Assembly: GCA_030154265.1 (NCBI GenBank)
Contig: JASKKH010000019.1
Location: 1 to 32,448, forward strand
Direction: 5' to 3'
Length of the DNA stretch: 32,448 nt
DNA from: Clostridia bacterium
Lineage (GTDB): Bacteria > Bacillota > DSM-521 > Neomoorellales > Neomoorellaceae
Under the pieces are notes generated by a model. It had not been told where the DNA came from, did no database searches, and saw only the letters and a list, made by a program, of their open reading frames with translations. The position numbers and the translations under genes were made by a program. This document shows positions 519 through 28,005 of this stretch, piece by piece (the first letter of the stretch is position 1; every line of letters begins with the position of its first letter).

Positions 519-1002
519 TTAATTATTTTTCCCATGACAATGTAAATTATATGGGCAGCTATTATAGCAATCTCCATTACCAGGGTCAATTTCTTCATAT
601 ATCATACGCATTTTTTCGTCTCGTCCTTCAATAAACCTCTGTCGCAGCTCAATCGTCAATAATATGAATATCTTTCTTTATTACCAAACGCCCATTTTTA
701 AATTCTCCATAAACTATACAACCGAGATTAATTGAAAATTCATATAACGTTTCCATCACCAGGGCGTATCCGGTGGTGGTCAGGCGGTGAAGATCCTTAA
801 CCTCACCAAACTTTAAATCTAGTACCATTGGTTCAGAAAAGGTAAAAGCATCAGCACTGAGGTTAGAACTAAGCCCCAAAAACAAGCCTTCCAGCTTTTG
901 TTCCAGAATAACGGGTACTGCTAAAGCTGCAAGGGAATCTTCCCCTATATTGACACTACCCTTCGACTTCAAAGCCGTCTTCCTGACGGTATCGCGTCGC
1001 TA
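519..1002 (-). pseudogene. Cas4/Csa1-like CRISPR nuclease remnant, frameshifted
   Basis: The main reading frame (649-972, extendable without a stop to about 1002) contains PMVLDLKFGEVKDLHRL and TTGYALVMETLYEF, which resemble the nuclease core of Cas4/Csa1 proteins. That frame stops at TGA 649-651. One base over, the protein continues from about 652 as ELRQRFIEGRDEKMRMIYEE and ends at TAA 519-521 with CYNSCPYNLHC. This C-x3-C-x5-C cysteine cluster matches the iron-sulfur ligands at the C-terminus of the Cas4 family. A single extra base at 651-652 explains the break. The N-terminal half, which would carry the first cysteine, is missing, and the frame closes at TAG 1000-1002 beside array 2. The protein would normally trim or select prespacers during adaptation; here it is very probably non-functional. 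The family call rests on recalled motifs, and no other cas gene is visible. Confidence 0.68.
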
Positions 1003-1810: not shown

Positions 1811-3624
1811 ATGACAACTAAAAAAAATTAACATTTAAAATCGAAGGTATGAACTGTACTTCATGCGCAGCCAAAATAGAGAAAGGTCTTCAAAAACTGG
1901 AAGGTGTCCAGTCTGCAGGTGTTAATTTTGCCGTTGAAAAAGCAACCGTAGAGTATAACCTTACTGTGGTAGGGCCGGATAAGTTCTTCCAGGTAGTTGA
2001 AGACCTAGGTTATCACGTGGGTAAGGAACGGGTCGAACTCAAAATCAGCGGTATGACCTGCGCTTCCTGTGCTGCCAGGGTGGAGAAAAAGCTCAGCAAT
2101 CTGCCAAGCGTAGTTAGGACCAGTGTCAACTTTGCCATGGAACGGGCCACGGTAGAATTTGACTCCTCTCAAGTATCGGTAAACGATATGCAAAAAGCCG
2201 TTGCTGATATTGGTTATAAAGCAAATCCTGGCGAAAAAAGGTTTGACGAAGATTCCGAAAAGCTGGAGCGGCAGCAGGAAACCCGCCGACAGACTTGCCT
2301 TTTGATACTCTCGGCAGTGCTATCCCTTCCCTTACTAGCATATATGTTCGGAGAGTTATTTAACCTTCCCCTTCCTGCCATATTTGATAATAAAGTATTT
2401 CAGTTCGCCCTGGCCACTCCGATCCAGTTTATCGCCGGGTGGCAGTTTTACCGCGGTGCCTACCAAAATTTGCGTCATGGTACTGCCAACATGGATGTCT
2501 TAATTGCCATGGGTACCTCCGCGGCTTACTTCTACAGTGTGGCTACCACCTTTTTTTATTCCGGGCCACGTCTACTATGAGACATCAGCTTTTATTATTA
2601 CCCTTATTCTACTGGATAGGCTTTTAGAATCCATAGCTAAAGAGGCCGTACCTCAGAAGCCATCAAGAAGCTTATTATGGGTCTTCAGGCCAAAGCAGCA
2701 CGGGTATTGCGAGATGGCCGGGAGATGGACATCCCGGTAGAAGACGTACAGGTTGGCGATATCGTTATCGTCCGGCTTGGAGAAAAGATACCGGTAGATG
2801 GAGAAATTATTGAAGGTTTTTCAACAGTAGATGAATCAATGCTGACCGGTGAAAGTATTCCCGTGGATAAAAAGGTCAGAGATGAAGTCATCGAAGCTAC
2901 CATAAATAAGCAAGGGTCTTTCAAATTCCGGGCCACTAAAGTAGGGTCAGAAACAGCCCTGGCTCAGATCATCAAAATCGTTGAAGAAGCCCAAGGGTCT
3001 AAAGCCCCTATCCAGCGGCTGGCCGACGTCATCTCCGGATATTTTGTTCCCACAGTTGTGGCTATAGCAGTACTCACCTTCTTAATCTGGTATTTTGGGG
3101 CGGCACCCGGCGATCTGGCTCGGGCCCTAATAAATTTCACCGCCGTGTTGGTCATCGCCTGCCCCTGCGCCCTCGGTCTCGCCACTCCTACCTCCATCAT
3201 GGTAGGTACCGGACGGGGAGCAGAAAATGGCATACTAATCAAAGGCAGAGAGCACCTGGAAAAAGCCTACCGCCTACAGAGCATCGTCCTGGATAAGACC
3301 GGAACCATCACCAAGGGACAGCCAGAAGTAACTGATGTAGTACCTCTAAATGAAAATATGGATATAAACGAACTACACCGACTGGTAGCATCACTCGAAC
3401 GCAACTCTGAACACCCTTTAGGTCAGGCTATTGTCGAAAGTGCAAAAGAACGCAAACTTAACCTTGAAGAACCCAAAGACTTTGAGGCTATCCCCAGCCA
3501 CGGCGTGGTTGGATCAAACATTAATCGTCGTACGATGGAAAATATAAAATTAGCAGGTATACATTTTCAAAATGTTGAAAATGTATATGGAAAGATTGTT
3601 AAGCTGATAGTAGCTACTCCATAA
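1811..3624 (+). pseudogene. copA: Copper-exporting P1B ATPase, multiply broken
   Basis: An intact gene would export Cu(I) across the membrane using ATP. The natural start is ATG 1811 with GGAGG at 1800-1804, but this frame stops at 1829-1831 after an A-run (1820-1827) that appears one base short. The next frame then reads TFKIEGMNCTSC. Two HMA domains (GMNCTSC and GMTCASC) and the first membrane segments follow. A second shift at a T-run (2551-2557) leads to TGA at 2578-2580, and a third lies near 2640-2646. Frame 2677-3624 then carries the TGES loop, the [11 protein letters not shown] metal site in the membrane, DKTGT phosphorylation site and SEHP nucleotide-binding motif. After about 3505 the protein decays: part of the N-domain is scrambled and the GDG-x-ND hinge and last two membrane helices are absent. 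Sequencing error could explain the homopolymer shifts but not the missing C-terminus. Confidence 0.9.
3559..3586. repeat. Perfect 12-bp inverted repeat at the copA 3' end
   Basis: ATACATTTTCAA (3559-3570), a 4-nt AATG loop, and TTGAAAATGTAT (3575-3586) form a perfect hairpin inside the degraded 3' part of copA. It could mark a rearrangement endpoint or simply be a decayed coding segment that folds. Confidence 0.7.
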
Positions 3625-3825: not shown

Positions 3826-4674
3826 TCAGTTTTCACCTTGAATAGTGTCTTTTACATGGTCAATATAAATCTGCTGAAAAGCAGGGTTTTCACCCAATCC
3901 ATGGAGATAAGTACTAACTACATAACCTTCTTTTTGTAAGATGGTCTTCCAAGAATCTTCTTCATCACCAGCCATATCATTAATGGCATGGTCTCCAGCA
4001 ACCAACATAAAGGGCATCAAGATTACTTCATTAATATTTTTTGTTTTAAGGTCTTCAATAACATAATCTAAAGTTGGATAACCTTCCACAGTGGCAATGA
4101 AAACCTTACCATTTAAATCCGAATGGTTAATTACACTTTGTAAACATGCATAAGCAGAGTTGGCCGGATGCTCTGAGCCATGACCCATAAAGACTACTGC
4201 CTGTCCCTTATCGAGTTTAGGCAGCTGCTCTTTTATTGCTTCTACTGCAATTTTATAATCCTTCACATGAGTCAAAATAGGTCTACCTAAACTTAGTTTA
4301 TCAAATGACCCTTCAAATTCCTTAACAACTTCTACGATTTCTTCAAATTCTGAACCATTAATAATATGTAAGGGTTGAACGATTACCTCACTAAACCCTT
4401 CTTCTTTCATTTTTTGTAGAGCTTCTTTAGGGTTATCAATTTTTATATTGTCTCTTTCCGCTAATTTTTTAATTATAATCTGTGAAGTAAAAGCCCTGCG
4501 AATTTCATATTCTGGAAAAATTTTGGCAATTTTGTTTTCTACACTTTCAATACAAGCTTTACGGGTATTTTCATAACTGGTTCCAAAACTAACGACCAAA
4601 ATACCTTTTTTCCCTATGGACTGATTTGATGATTGCTTTTTTTGGTCAGAAGGTTGTTGGTCTTGCTGATTCAT
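3826..4674 (-). CDS. cbiK: Sirohydrochlorin cobaltochelatase CbiK
   Basis: CbiK inserts Co2+ into sirohydrochlorin in the anaerobic cobalamin pathway. The 282-aa protein has the N-terminal chelatase signature ILVVSFGTSYENTRKA (25-40). The metal-site residues sit at the family spacing: His165 in FMGHGSEHPAN, Glu197 in VEGYP and His229 in AGDHAINDMAG. These correspond to His145, Glu175 and His207 of Salmonella CbiK as I recall it. The first 20 residues are a Gln/Ser-rich extension with no signal peptide, so the enzyme is probably cytoplasmic. The start is ATG 4674 with GAGAGG upstream. The gene stands alone with its own promoter, a long leader containing a terminator-like hairpin, and a terminator after the stop. 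No other cobalamin gene is in the window. Use in siroheme synthesis or with nickel cannot be excluded. Confidence 0.93.
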   Translation of the reverse strand: MNQQDQQPSDQKKQSSNQSIGKKGILVVSFGTSYENTRKACIESVENKIAKIFPEYEIRRAFTSQIIIKKLAERDNIKIDNPKEALQKMKEEGFSEVIVQPLHIINGSEFEEIVEVVKEFEGSFDKLSLGRPILTHVKDYKIAVEAIKEQLPKLDKGQAVVFMGHGSEHPANSAYACLQSVINHSDLNGKVFIATVEGYPTLDYVIEDLKTKNINEVILMPFMLVAGDHAINDMAGDEEDSWKTILQKEGYVVSTYLHGLGENPAFQQIYIDHVKDTIQGEN

Positions 4675-4732
4675 GATACCATCCTCTCGAAAAATTAACT
4701 CTTACTAAAGAGCTTCTTTTATAGCTCTTATC

Positions 4733-4766
4733 AAAAAATGGATACCCCTTCCGCAGGAATATCCAT
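4733..4766 (-). terminator. Candidate attenuator in the cbiK leader
   Basis: On the minus strand ATGGATA (4760-4766) pairs with TATCCAT (4738-4744), with an inner TTCC-TGC-GGAA stem, followed by a run of six T (4733-4738, the last overlapping the stem base). It lies between the promoter (4833-4861) and the cbiK start at 4674, where a functional terminator would act as a transcription attenuator. Upstream GGGGAA around 4791-4796 could pair with the inner TTCC and form an alternative fold. The ligand or regulator is unknown. Confidence 0.65.
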
Positions 4767-4832
4767 TATAAGACTTAATGCATACGTCTTCCCCTCCGAA
4801 AGAAATAGGCAACACGTACATTTTATATGGTC

Positions 4833-4861
4833 ATTTTAATTTCATTTTTCGACTTTGTCAA
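4833..4861 (-). promoter_or_regulatory. sigma-A promoter of cbiK
   Basis: On the minus strand TTGACA (4856-4861) and TAAAAT (4833-4838) are spaced by 17 nt. It implies an untranslated leader of about 150 nt before cbiK. Confidence 0.8.
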
Positions 4862-4918: not shown

Positions 4919-5842
4919 TTAAACATCAACTGAAAATAAATCTGTACTAAGATAGCGCTCGCCGGAATCAGGTGCAATCGCCATGACCTTTTTCCCTTTC
5001 CCAAAAATACGCCCTACTTTAAGGGCCGCAGAAATAGCTGCACCTGAAGAAATCCCTACTAAAAGACCTTCTTCTCGAGCCAAACGCCGTGAGGTTTCCA
5101 TGGCTTCTTCATCCGTAACAGTTATAATATCATCAATCAAATCTAAACTTAAAACCTTAGGTATAAAGCCAGCTCCTATTCCTTGAATTTTATGAAAGCC
5201 AGGTTGCCCACCGGAAAGTACAGGGGAAGCTGCCGGTTCTACAGCAATTATTCTTATATCAGGTATTTCAACTTTTAAAACCTCGCCTATTCCCGTAATT
5301 GTGCCTCCAGTTCCTACAGCAATAACTAAAGCATCAAGTTCTCCGTCCATCTGTTTTATAATCTCTCTGGCCGTGGTTTGGCGGTGAATTGCTGGATTGG
5401 CCGGGTTTTCAAACTGCTGGGGCATAAAGTAATCCGGGTTTTCATTGACTAATTCCATAGCCTTTTCCACGGAACCTCTCATTCCTAGTTCCCCAGGAGT
5501 TAAAATAATTTCTGCACCATAAGCCGCAAGTAATTTCCTTCTCTCAATACTCATGGTATCTGGCATGACTAGAATTAATCGATAGCCGCGTATAGCTGAA
5601 ATTAAGGCTAGACCAATGCCGGTGTTACCGCTTGTTGGTTCAACAATAGTACCTCCCGGCCTTAAATCACCGTTTGCTTCAGCTTCTTCAATCATATTGA
5701 GGGCCACACGATCCTTAATACTGGCTCCAGGATTAAAATACTCAAGTTTAACATATACATCCGCAGAATCTTCCACTAAACAATTCAGACGAACTACAGG
5801 TGTCTTCCCTATTAATTTCGTTACATCCATAGCTACATCCAT
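4919..5842 (-). CDS. cysK: Cysteine synthase A (O-acetylserine sulfhydrylase)
   Basis: This PLP enzyme makes cysteine from O-acetylserine and sulfide. The 307-aa length is normal. The PLP lysine is Lys43 in NPGASIKDR. The substrate loop TSGNTG is at 70-75, the phosphate-binding GTGGTITG is mid-protein, and SSGAA and [10 protein letters not shown] lie near the C-terminus. The start ATG 5842 has a strong GGGGGAG five bases upstream; a second in-frame ATG lies at codon 5. The gene is monocistronic: the terminator of yunB lies just upstream and the cbiK promoter begins just downstream, at 4861. CysK and the related CysM are hard to separate, but the length and motifs favour CysK. Confidence 0.96.
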
Positions 5843-5944: not shown

Positions 5945-6628
5945 TCAAAATTGTGGTAACCGTAAAATACCTTTTAATAATTCCGAACTCAGGGAAACAT
6001 AGGTTTCGGGCACAGGTCCAACTATAATTGCCTCTGCTACAGGAATAATGGAAACTACCTTTACCTTTTCTATACTAAAGGGAGCTATTACCTCAACCTC
6101 GCTCTCTGCCTGAAGGTAAATACGGTGACGCGTCTGGTTTATCCCTACAGATTCAAAAGTATCCCCTACATTAACATCTATTGTACCCATAGGTACGAAT
6201 CTAAGGGGTACTGGTGGCCCATAAGCGGCCAATAGTTTTATCCCCAGTAACTGCCCCAGAGGCACGTGATAGGTTTTACCTTTTAGCTGGGAAAGACGCT
6301 CCTGAATAGCTAATTGAGCCTTGGCTTGGAGGCGGCTAATTTCCAGAGCATCAGCTTGCATAAATACAACCTTACCACCTTGAGTAGTACCAGGCTCAAG
6401 TAAACTATTATAATCTATTTCATCACCTACTTTATCTAAAACCGCCTGTTGCATGGCCTCGGTAGCCACCCAACGAGCCTGAGCCACAGCTACTTCTTCT
6501 ATAACAGGTCCTAAGCGCCATTCTATCAATAACAAAAACAATCCACAGAACAATACCACTAAAGCTATGGCTCCCCACGGCCGCTGTCCTGGGCGCCGCC
6601 ACCGCCGTCGCAAGGCAATCACCCCCAT
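5945..6628 (-). CDS. yunB: Sporulation protein YunB
   Basis: The 227-aa protein has a basic N-terminus (RRRWRRPGQRP), a single membrane segment at about 18-36 (IALVVLFCGLFLLLI) and an extracytoplasmic domain. The domain carries YunB-type features such as the PLGQLLG and GPPVPLRFVPMG region. YunB is a sporulation protein of the mother-cell programme in Bacillus and its mechanism is not well defined. It marks the host as an endospore former or a descendant of one. The listed start is ATG 6628. An alternative TTG at 6611-6613 (codon 6) is better placed behind the GGGGGTGAT Shine-Dalgarno, which overlaps the first codons. A terminator follows. It shares strand with tyrS upstream, 66 nt away. Confidence 0.87.
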   Translation of the reverse strand: MGVIALRRRWRRPGQRPWGAIALVVLFCGLFLLLIEWRLGPVIEEVAVAQARWVATEAMQQAVLDKVGDEIDYNSLLEPGTTQGGKVVFMQADALEISRLQAKAQLAIQERLSQLKGKTYHVPLGQLLGIKLLAAYGPPVPLRFVPMGTIDVNVGDTFESVGINQTRHRIYLQAESEVEVIAPFSIEKVKVVSIIPVAEAIIVGPVPETYVSLSSELLKGILRLPQF

Positions 6629-6694: not shown

Positions 6695-7909
6695 CTATTT
6701 GTCAGAAAACACCCGAGCAAACTTACGTTTACCTACCTGAAGTACCATACCATTAGTGATATTGATGTCATCCTCTACATTTGTTATGCGCTCACCATCA
6801 ATTTTTACAGCTCCCTGACGAACTAAACGACGAGCTTCACTGTTACTGGGAGCCAATCCAGCTCTAACTAGTAATCTGGGTAACCATATTTTTTCTTCAT
6901 TAATGTGTACTTCAGGCATATCCTCAGGTAAATCACCTTGCTGGAAGACACTGCAAAACTCCTTTTCTGCCTCCCAGGCTGCTTCTTTACTGTGATATAA
7001 AGAAACGATTTCCCTGGCTAAACGCATTTTGACATCGCGGGGATGAAGACTGCCATCTTCCAGACCCTTACGAATAGTTTCCAGTTCATCTAATGGTACA
7101 GCCGTTACCAGTTCAAAGTAAGTCATCATGAGTTCATCAGGTATGGACATGGTCTTGCCGTACATTTCTTTGGGCGTTTCATTAACCCCTATATAATTAC
7201 CGAGGCTTTTACTCATCTTTTGTACACCGTCCAGACCCGGCAAAATAGGCATCATCATGGCCACCTGAGGTTCCTGACCATAATCTCGCTGTAATTGACG
7301 TCCCATCAAAAGGTTGAACTTTTGATCTGTACCACCTAATTCGACATCAGCGTTTAAAGCTATAGAATCATAACCCTGCATCAAAGGATAGAAAAACTCA
7401 TGTACACTTATAGGCCGGTTTTCACGATAACGCTTGGCAAAATCATCACGTTCCAACATCCTCGCTACAGTAATTTTAGCAGCAAGTTCAATCACATCGG
7501 CAAAATCCAGTTTACCTAGCCAGCTGCTATTAAAAGTAACCTCGGTTTTTGCCGGGTCTAAAATCTTAAAAATTTGTTCTTTATATGTTTCAGCGTTAGC
7601 CATGACTTCTGCTTCAGTTAATTGCTTACGGGTCTCTGATTTACCGGTGGGATCACCAATTCGACCGGTAAAATCTCCTATAATTATAATTATTTGATGG
7701 CCTAGTTCCTGGAATTGGCGCAACTTTTGTAATACAACCGTATGACCCAAATGAATATCAGGGGCAGTTGGATCTAATCCCAGTTTAATGCGCAAAGGTT
7801 TACCGGTAGTAATAGATTTTTCAATTTTAGCTTTTAATTCTTCCTCAGGAACAATCTCCACTACCCCACGTCGTAAAACTTTTAATTGTCGTTCAATTTC
7901 CTTATCCAA
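6695..7909 (-). CDS. tyrS: Tyrosyl-tRNA synthetase
   Basis: This class I synthetase charges tRNA-Tyr. The 404-aa protein has the HIGH-type motif HLGH (53-56), [10 protein letters not shown] (192-201) in the active site, and KMSKS (231-235). A C-terminal S4 RNA-binding domain (about 340-400) includes [20 protein letters not shown]. The length and the [15 protein letters not shown] context fit the TyrRZ/TyrS2 branch rather than the shorter TyrS1 type. The start is TTG 7909, forced by an in-frame TGA just upstream; AAGGAGG lies about 11 nt before it. No T-box is evident in the 196-nt divergent region with the penicillin-binding protein gene. Confidence 0.96.
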
Positions 7910-26704: not shown

Positions 26705-27727
26705 TTAAAACTGACGTAAAAAACGCAGGTCATTATCATAAAACATTCTTAGGTCATCAATACCATACTTTAACATGGCCACCCGATCTACTCCAAGCCC
26801 AAAAGCAAAGCCGCTGACTTCCTGAGGATCATATCCAGACATGCTTAAAACCCGTGGATGAACCATACCACAACCGAGTATCTCTAACCAACCGGTTTGG
26901 GAACAAACGCGGCAACCCTCACCGCCACACATAACACAAGACATATCTACTTCAGCACTAGGTTCCGTAAAGGGAAAATAACTGGGACGAAAACGCACCC
27001 CGACCTCTTTTCCAAACATCTGCTTTAAGAAAGCCATTAAAGTACCTTTGAGGTCACCAAAGGTTACCCTTTTATCAATTAACAACCCTTCCACCTGAAA
27101 AAACATTGGTGAATGGGTAGCATCATCATCACGCCTGTAAACTTTCCCCGGTGCTATTATCCTAATAGGAATTTCAGGTTTTCTGCTTTCCATAACCCGT
27201 GCCTGAACCGGTGAGGTATGGGTACGGAGCAAAACATCTGGTGTTATATAAAAGGAATCCTGCATATCCCGAGCCGGGTGATCTTTAGGTAAATTTAATG
27301 CCTCAAAGTTATAATAATCGCTCTCTACTTCTGGCCCTTCAGCCACATCAAAACCTAAACCAATAAAGATATCCTTAATTTCATTTAGTATCTGATATAA
27401 AGGATGGCGGGAACCTTTCCTTATTGGGCGACCCGGAAGGGTAACATCAATGGTTTCAGATTTTAGCCTTTCTGCTAGTTCTCTACGAGCAAGGTTTTCT
27501 TTAGCCTCCTGAAGGGCTTTTTCCAGCTCTTGTCGTACCTGATTAGCAAGCTGACCAACTTTTGGACGCTCTTCGGGGGGGAGTTTTCCCATACCCCTTA
27601 GTACCTGAGTTAACTCACCCTTTTTCCCCAGGTACTGAACTCTTAACTTTTCCAATTCCTCACTGCTGGTAGCTTCAGCTACCTTATCAATTGCTGTTGT
27701 CCGTATTTTTTCAATAGACTCAATCAT
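26705..27727 (-). CDS. pheS: Phenylalanyl-tRNA synthetase alpha subunit
   Basis: This is the catalytic alpha chain, 340 aa. The N-terminal coiled coil (about 1-95) includes [19 protein letters not shown]. Class II motif 2 is [20 protein letters not shown] and motif 3 is [14 protein letters not shown] near the C-terminus. [18 protein letters not shown] is the Phe-pocket region. A cysteine-rich insert ([12 protein letters not shown]) is common in bacterial PheS. Start ATG 27727 with GGGGTG upstream. It is preceded by the T-box leader and followed by pheT. Confidence 0.98.
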
Positions 27728-27753: not shown

Positions 27754-28005
27754 TAAAAAAAGCCTTCGCCCTTCGGGACGAAAGCTAATAAATATTCTGG
27801 AACCACCCCAAGCCAACGGCACCATCATGCCGTTCCCTTTTAACGGTGGGAGACCGACTCAGCCTACTTCAACTTTCAGCCTGCTGCTCCTGGGTGAACT
27901 TCACTCGGACTTCCCCCAGCAGCGCTTCCAGTCAACGACGCCGCCTCCCTGTGGGTTCCATACCGGTTACTTTACCCATTCATTGCATTTAAACTATTTA
28001 GGTAT
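27754..28005 (-). ncRNA. T-box leader of pheST
   Basis: The leader lies between the YqzL-like gene and pheS. On the minus strand, Stem I-like sequence includes a TTC Phe codon at 27896-27898 in AAGTTCACCC, a good specifier candidate. A stem III-like hairpin AACGGC/GCCGTT is at 27815-27834. The T-box core GGGGTGGT has TGGT at 27802-27805, which would pair with the ACCA end of uncharged tRNA-Phe. The terminator is AGCCTTCGCCC with GGGACGAAAGCT (27761-27786), followed by T7 (27754-27760). The TTTCGTCCC arm is the classic competing half. The bases after TGGT are TCC rather than the usual ACC-GCG. Left and right limits are approximate. Confidence 0.88.

Follow-up and report, generated by a model that had tools for sequence, protein, structure and literature searches.

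A candidate transcription attenuator in the leader of a stand-alone cobalt chelatase gene of a Clostridia bacterium

Results and Discussion

The gene cbiK of a Clostridia bacterium (assembly GCA_030154265.1) is preceded by a predicted promoter-driven leader RNA with an intrinsic terminator between promoter and gene. With a confidence just above even, we interpret this leader as an ordinary terminator/antiterminator transcription attenuator that is off by default and precedes a cbiK gene standing apart from the other cobalamin genes. The analysis covered a window of 32,448 nucleotides (contig JASKKH010000019.1, positions 1 to 32,448), which was compared with the rest of the source genome (1.99 Mb in 70 contigs) and with related genomes.

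Genomic setting of cbiK

The genes tyrS (6695-7909), a yunB-like sporulation gene (5945-6628), cysK (4919-5842; TIGR01139, 466.8 bits) and cbiK (3826-4674) follow one another on the minus strand of the window. The cbiK product is an anaerobic cobalt chelatase of 282 amino acids (PF06180, E 8.3e-105); it scores 331 bits against NF047852, under the 400-bit equivalog cut-off of that model. Between cysK and cbiK lies a gap of 244 nt that contains a promoter-like site and a terminator hairpin, all on the minus strand. On the other side, cbiK adjoins a copper-type P-ATPase gene on the plus strand (1849-3624), which is split into two frames (1849-2580 and 2677-3624), stops early within the hydrolase domain and is pseudogene-like. 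The plus strand also carries two CRISPR-like arrays at 1-335 and 1017-1181 with different repeats (CTTTCAGTCCCCTTGTTACCGGGTCAATAGGTGCAAC, spacing 72-74; GTTTCCGTCCCCTATAGCCGGGTCATAAAC, spacing 66), and between them lies a fragment resembling cas4/csa1 (649-972, minus strand).

This cbiK is the sole match to a CbiK/CbiX-type chelatase in the genome of about 2 Mb. Seven cobalamin riboswitches score above threshold in the genome, one of which precedes an operon of cobU, cbiD, three tetrapyrrole methylase genes, cbiG, cbiJ, cbiC and a CobB/CobQ-type amidotransferase gene; no chelatase is among the genes annotated there. As the only chelatase gene of its type, located outside the riboswitch-controlled operon, cbiK therefore needs a control of its own. 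In the cbiK loci of other species that were read out, the gene frequently lies after other B12 genes, and in Oleidesulfovibrio alaskensis cbiK(P) is reported to have a cobalamin riboswitch nearby (PMC11124144).

Promoter and terminator

A sigma-70-type promoter at 4833-4861 (minus strand) matches the consensus at 11 of 12 positions, with TTGACA at 4861-4856, a 17-nt spacer and TAAAAT at 4838-4833. When the cysK-cbiK gap was shuffled with dinucleotide composition preserved, only 0.46% of the shuffles contained a promoter of at least 11/12 on the same strand. Judging from the spacing to the -10 box, transcription is expected to start at about 4826, which would give an untranslated leader of about 152 nt (4675-4826) before the cbiK ATG at 4674. 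A scan of the gap sequence detected no good promoter between the terminator hairpin and cbiK.

The terminator (4733-4767, minus strand) consists of a hairpin of 13 pairs and -16.3 kcal/mol at 4767-4737, with the sequence AATGGATATTCC-TGCGG-AAGGGGTATCCATT, followed by T's to 4733. It is the first strong terminator after cysK. Two T-run hairpins of -16 kcal/mol or better occur in the surrounding 12 kb, compared to none in 20 shuffles of this region. The leader as a whole folds more stably than its shuffles (z -5.1), a large share of which is due to the terminator. The initial annotation had described a TTGACA-N17-TAAAAT promoter driving a leader with a T-run hairpin at 4733-4766 before cbiK; since promoter and terminator both exceed the shuffle expectation, that observation stands.

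Predicted competing structures

Stepwise folding of the growing transcript predicts two mutually exclusive states. A 5' hairpin (4781-4819, minus strand; about -13 kcal/mol) forms first, followed by a long imperfect hairpin in which the strand 4807-4797 (UAUUUCUUUCG) pairs with 4753-4743 (CGGAAGGGGUA), the latter being the 3' arm of the terminator. This predicted antiterminator, which appears both in the co-transcriptional series of minimum-energy folds and in the fold with the terminator blocked, is the minimum-energy state while the transcript ends at 4745-4743. From 4740 onward, the minimum-energy state is the terminator together with the 5' hairpin, which sequesters 4807-4797 and is a possible anti-antiterminator. 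With the transcript end at 4737, the off state reaches about -30 kcal/mol, whereas folds that lack the terminator reach about -22 kcal/mol at best; the default is therefore off.

The statistical backing of these structures was assessed against shuffles and against terminators from 0.99 Mb of the genome (about half), fetched in stretches. When the terminator is blocked, 26 pairs connect the upstream 59 nt to it, a number reached by two of 300 shuffles. By this cross-pairing, the cbiK leader ranks second among 132 strong terminators; the top rank goes to the terminator of a cobalamin riboswitch, and the terminators at ranks 9, 10, 14, 16 and 18 also adjoin known riboswitches or T-boxes. Taken together, terminators in leader position do not exceed other terminators in cross-pairing (p 0.29). 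The energy of the alternative fold is modestly better than that of shuffles (36 of 500 equal it, p ~0.07), a p-value that 17% of the strong terminators of the genome reach or better. The stability of the 5' hairpin is only weakly above chance: among 500 shuffled versions of the 59-nt 5' part, 32 fold equally well. A seeming direct repeat shared by the 5' hairpin and the terminator (p ~0.02-0.03 in shuffles) was set aside.

On these folds, the antiterminator 4807-4797/4753-4743 is plausible, and its high rank among genomic controls is in line with the competing structure that was proposed initially. The proposed competitor itself, a GGGGAA segment, holds in part: it exists at 4794-4789, and AGGG at 4795-4792 pairs with terminator sequence in the alternative fold, but its share is minor, and most of the competition comes from the pyrimidine-rich strand 4807-4797.

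In the predicted read-through RNA, the same strand has a further possible partner, the ribosome-binding site of cbiK. The mean unpaired probability of this site is 0.11, compared to 0.20 with the terminator blocked, which is a small difference. A second, translational layer of control is hence conceivable from the model, with a small predicted effect.

Comparison with other leaders of the genome

Among 371 genes with an upstream gap of at least 100 nt in the 0.99 Mb, 11 show the order of promoter, terminator and gene. Recognized Rfam cis-regulators occupy six of these leaders (two cobalamin riboswitches, a T-box, an M-box, a fluoride riboswitch and an L20 leader), so that the layout is a fair sign of attenuation in this genome, short of proof. 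A further case is a tRNA gene whose own terminator lies before a trigger-factor gene. The remaining layouts precede cbiK, valS, glnA and a dehydrogenase-like gene, as named by eye from the translations.

Several other leaders of the genome merit separate mention. The valS leader (stretch L198, 13680-13731, contig C53) is short and attenuator-like, with a promoter, a terminator of -18 kcal/mol and no T-box match. On contig C2 (stretch L144, 5743-6589), two divergent cobalamin riboswitches are separated by about 320 nt. Both have a terminator of their own, and no open reading frame of at least 80 amino acids starts within about 290-700 nt past the terminator. In the window, a T-box leader on the minus strand (27771-27992; 75 bits, E 1.6e-16) precedes pheS/pheT (26705-27727) and is followed by a terminator at 27786-27761; it was missed in the default scan because its score is below the gathering score of 93. 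An L20 leader (RF00558; 32170-32281, minus strand) precedes infC.

Searches for known RNA families and relatives

The leader was compared with 4227 Rfam families by cmscan, at the gathering score and again with relaxed filters and E up to 10. No family was matched at the gathering score. At E up to 10, the search returned only a terminator-like match to ncr1241 (24.9 bits, where the cut-off is 60; E 0.041), which spans little beyond the terminator and falls short of membership in this sRNA family, and two chance matches on the plus strand. The cobalamin riboswitch model (RF00174), which detects seven riboswitches elsewhere in the same genome, is unmatched in the cbiK leader at either setting; likewise, neither a NiCo model nor the T-box model (RF00230) matches at E up to 10. 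The cbiK leader is therefore not a cobalamin riboswitch, in agreement with the initial annotation, which had noted that the core of this riboswitch was absent.

Relatives of the leader were sought by sequence and by structure. A DNA search of 398 genomes of the phylum returned only partial matches of less than 50 nt (E 4e-4 or weaker per genome), and those read out sit in or beside unrelated sequence; none was taken as a homologue. A covariance model of the 5' hairpin and terminator found only the leader itself in its own genome and 22 genomes of the class, four weak matches resembling unrelated hairpins or terminators in the 398 phylum genomes, and no homologue at 58 cbiK loci. The 14.6-bit match in Clostridium mobile lies outside the cbiK leader and corresponds to an unrelated terminator. 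The nearest cbiK genes that were read out (best protein identity 66%) have leaders of different sequence, and several lie directly after another B12 gene. The genomes searched included no other species of the same genus.

Proposed mechanism and rival explanations

What the computations show is a promoter, a terminator, two pairings that exclude each other and an energy balance that favors the off state by default. From them, we infer a start of transcription, actual termination and a switch that works in the cell. RNA polymerase would start near 4826, and the 5' hairpin (4819-4781) would be the first structure of the nascent RNA. By default, the terminator (4767-4737) would form next and transcription would halt before cbiK. 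If the 5' hairpin were opened, or did not hold its 5' strand, 4807-4797 would be free to pair with 4753-4743; this pairing would block the terminator and allow cbiK to be transcribed. Candidate triggers are a small molecule, an RNA-binding protein and a ribosome, the last because the 5' hairpin conceals a consensus ribosome-binding site before the short frame ATG CAT TAA. Such a switch would presumably respond to the demand for cobalt, tetrapyrrole or B12; the initial suggestion that the leader could sense metal, tetrapyrrole or cobalamin demand gained no support from our searches. Several points speak against attenuation: the searches returned no homologous leader, the energy advantage of the alternative fold is modest, leader-placed terminators do not stand out by cross-pairing, the hairpin is also the first strong one past cysK, and a pyrimidine-rich strand such as 4807-4797 pairs readily with any purine-rich stretch.

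The leading rival, which we consider unlikely, is that the hairpin serves cysK as a normal 3' terminator and that cbiK is expressed through partial read-through or from the overlapping promoter, with termination that is partial, fixed and unregulated. The arrangement of the genes lends itself to this explanation: cysK is co-directional, its stop codon precedes the hairpin by 151 nt, and the sequence between them offers only a weak ATACC-ACAA-GGTAT stem lacking a T-run. Moreover, the tRNA gene among the 11 look-alike leaders is one instance of this layout in which the terminator is not part of an attenuator. However, the near-consensus promoter between cysK and the hairpin places the hairpin inside the predicted cbiK transcript regardless, the sequence from the hairpin to cbiK lacks a good promoter, and fixed termination sits poorly with the second-ranked cross-pairing. 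Still less probable is that the region 4826-4733 is transcribed as a small RNA in its own right, about 90 nt long and independent of cbiK. Promoter and terminator would bound such a transcript, and the lone sub-threshold Rfam match on the minus strand is to a Bacillus sRNA, ncr1241. That match is little more than the terminator, though, homologues were absent from the genomes searched, and cbiK would then be left with no recognizable promoter.

Translation within the leader provides another rival, one that we regard as improbable but slightly less so than the small RNA. Ribosomes on ATG CAT TAA, or on a 38-codon frame from 4821, would select among 5' hairpin, antiterminator and terminator. A translatable short frame does exist before the terminator: the possible mini-ORF (4775-4797, minus strand) comprises a consensus ribosome-binding site, GGAGGGG (4797-4791), at the correct spacing within the 5' hairpin, and the two-codon frame at 4783-4775. 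Shuffling the pre-terminator leader yields the pattern GGAGG-N5-10-ATG in 1.4% of cases, a value to be read in the light of the feature having been noticed after the fact. The leader has a single His codon and lacks a run of codons for a regulating amino acid, and a ribosome on the mini-ORF would partly cover the antiterminator strand. The 38-codon frame has neither a ribosome-binding site nor a family match. A short match in a methionine-synthase-like coding sequence had suggested that it is a gene remnant, a reading that was dropped since there was no Pfam match at E below 0.19 and no methyltransferase match.

A new riboswitch class before cbiK is possible, although nothing was found in its support. 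Such a small riboswitch would bind cobalt, nickel, sirohydrochlorin or a cobamide, its aptamer being formed by the 5' hairpin or by the terminator itself; we rate it as improbable as the small RNA. CbiK performs the cobalt-insertion step, known classes are absent from the leader, and terminator-embedded aptamers have been reported (PMC6478431). Conversely, this would be an unusually small sensor, and no conserved, aptamer-like core can be demonstrated because no second copy of the leader was found in the genome, the class, the roughly 400 phylum genomes or the 58 cbiK loci. The other B12 genes of this genome use the standard cobalamin riboswitch. The specific proposal that a very small, undescribed RNA sensor (~40-90 nt) for cobalt, nickel or sirohydrochlorin governs cobalt insertion apart from the cobalamin riboswitch of the pathway is the least probable we considered.

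The attenuator reading that we prefer would have consequences for cobalamin synthesis. If the switch is real, cobalt insertion would be controlled separately from the B12-riboswitch control of the remaining corrin synthesis, and its trigger would reveal the signal that commits sirohydrochlorin to cobalamin. At present, the cbiK leader is one plausible attenuator among several in the genome.

Comparison with known systems

The proposed attenuator can be placed beside several known regulators. Cobalamin riboswitches (RF00174) likewise control B12 genes through a choice between terminator and antiterminator; however, the approximately 60 nt before the cbiK terminator are too short for their aptamer of 189 positions. 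The NiCo (czcD) riboswitch is a metal-responsive leader RNA on a metal-related gene, but its models leave the cbiK leader unmatched. The HMP-PP riboswitch (thiS motif) is a very small control element near a terminator; the likeness is one of size only, as the cbiK leader is unmatched by Rfam and has a different gene context. ANTAR targets have two hairpins with hexanucleotide loops, whereas the predicted loops of the cbiK leader are of 4 and 5 nt. Leader-peptide attenuators differ in having a run of regulatory codons. While no known recognition motif was identified in the cbiK leader, its predicted organization resembles that of the TRAP/trp, PyrR, ANTAR, LicT and leader-peptide attenuators: in all of these, a short leader holds a 5' hairpin, an antiterminator and a terminator that are mutually exclusive.
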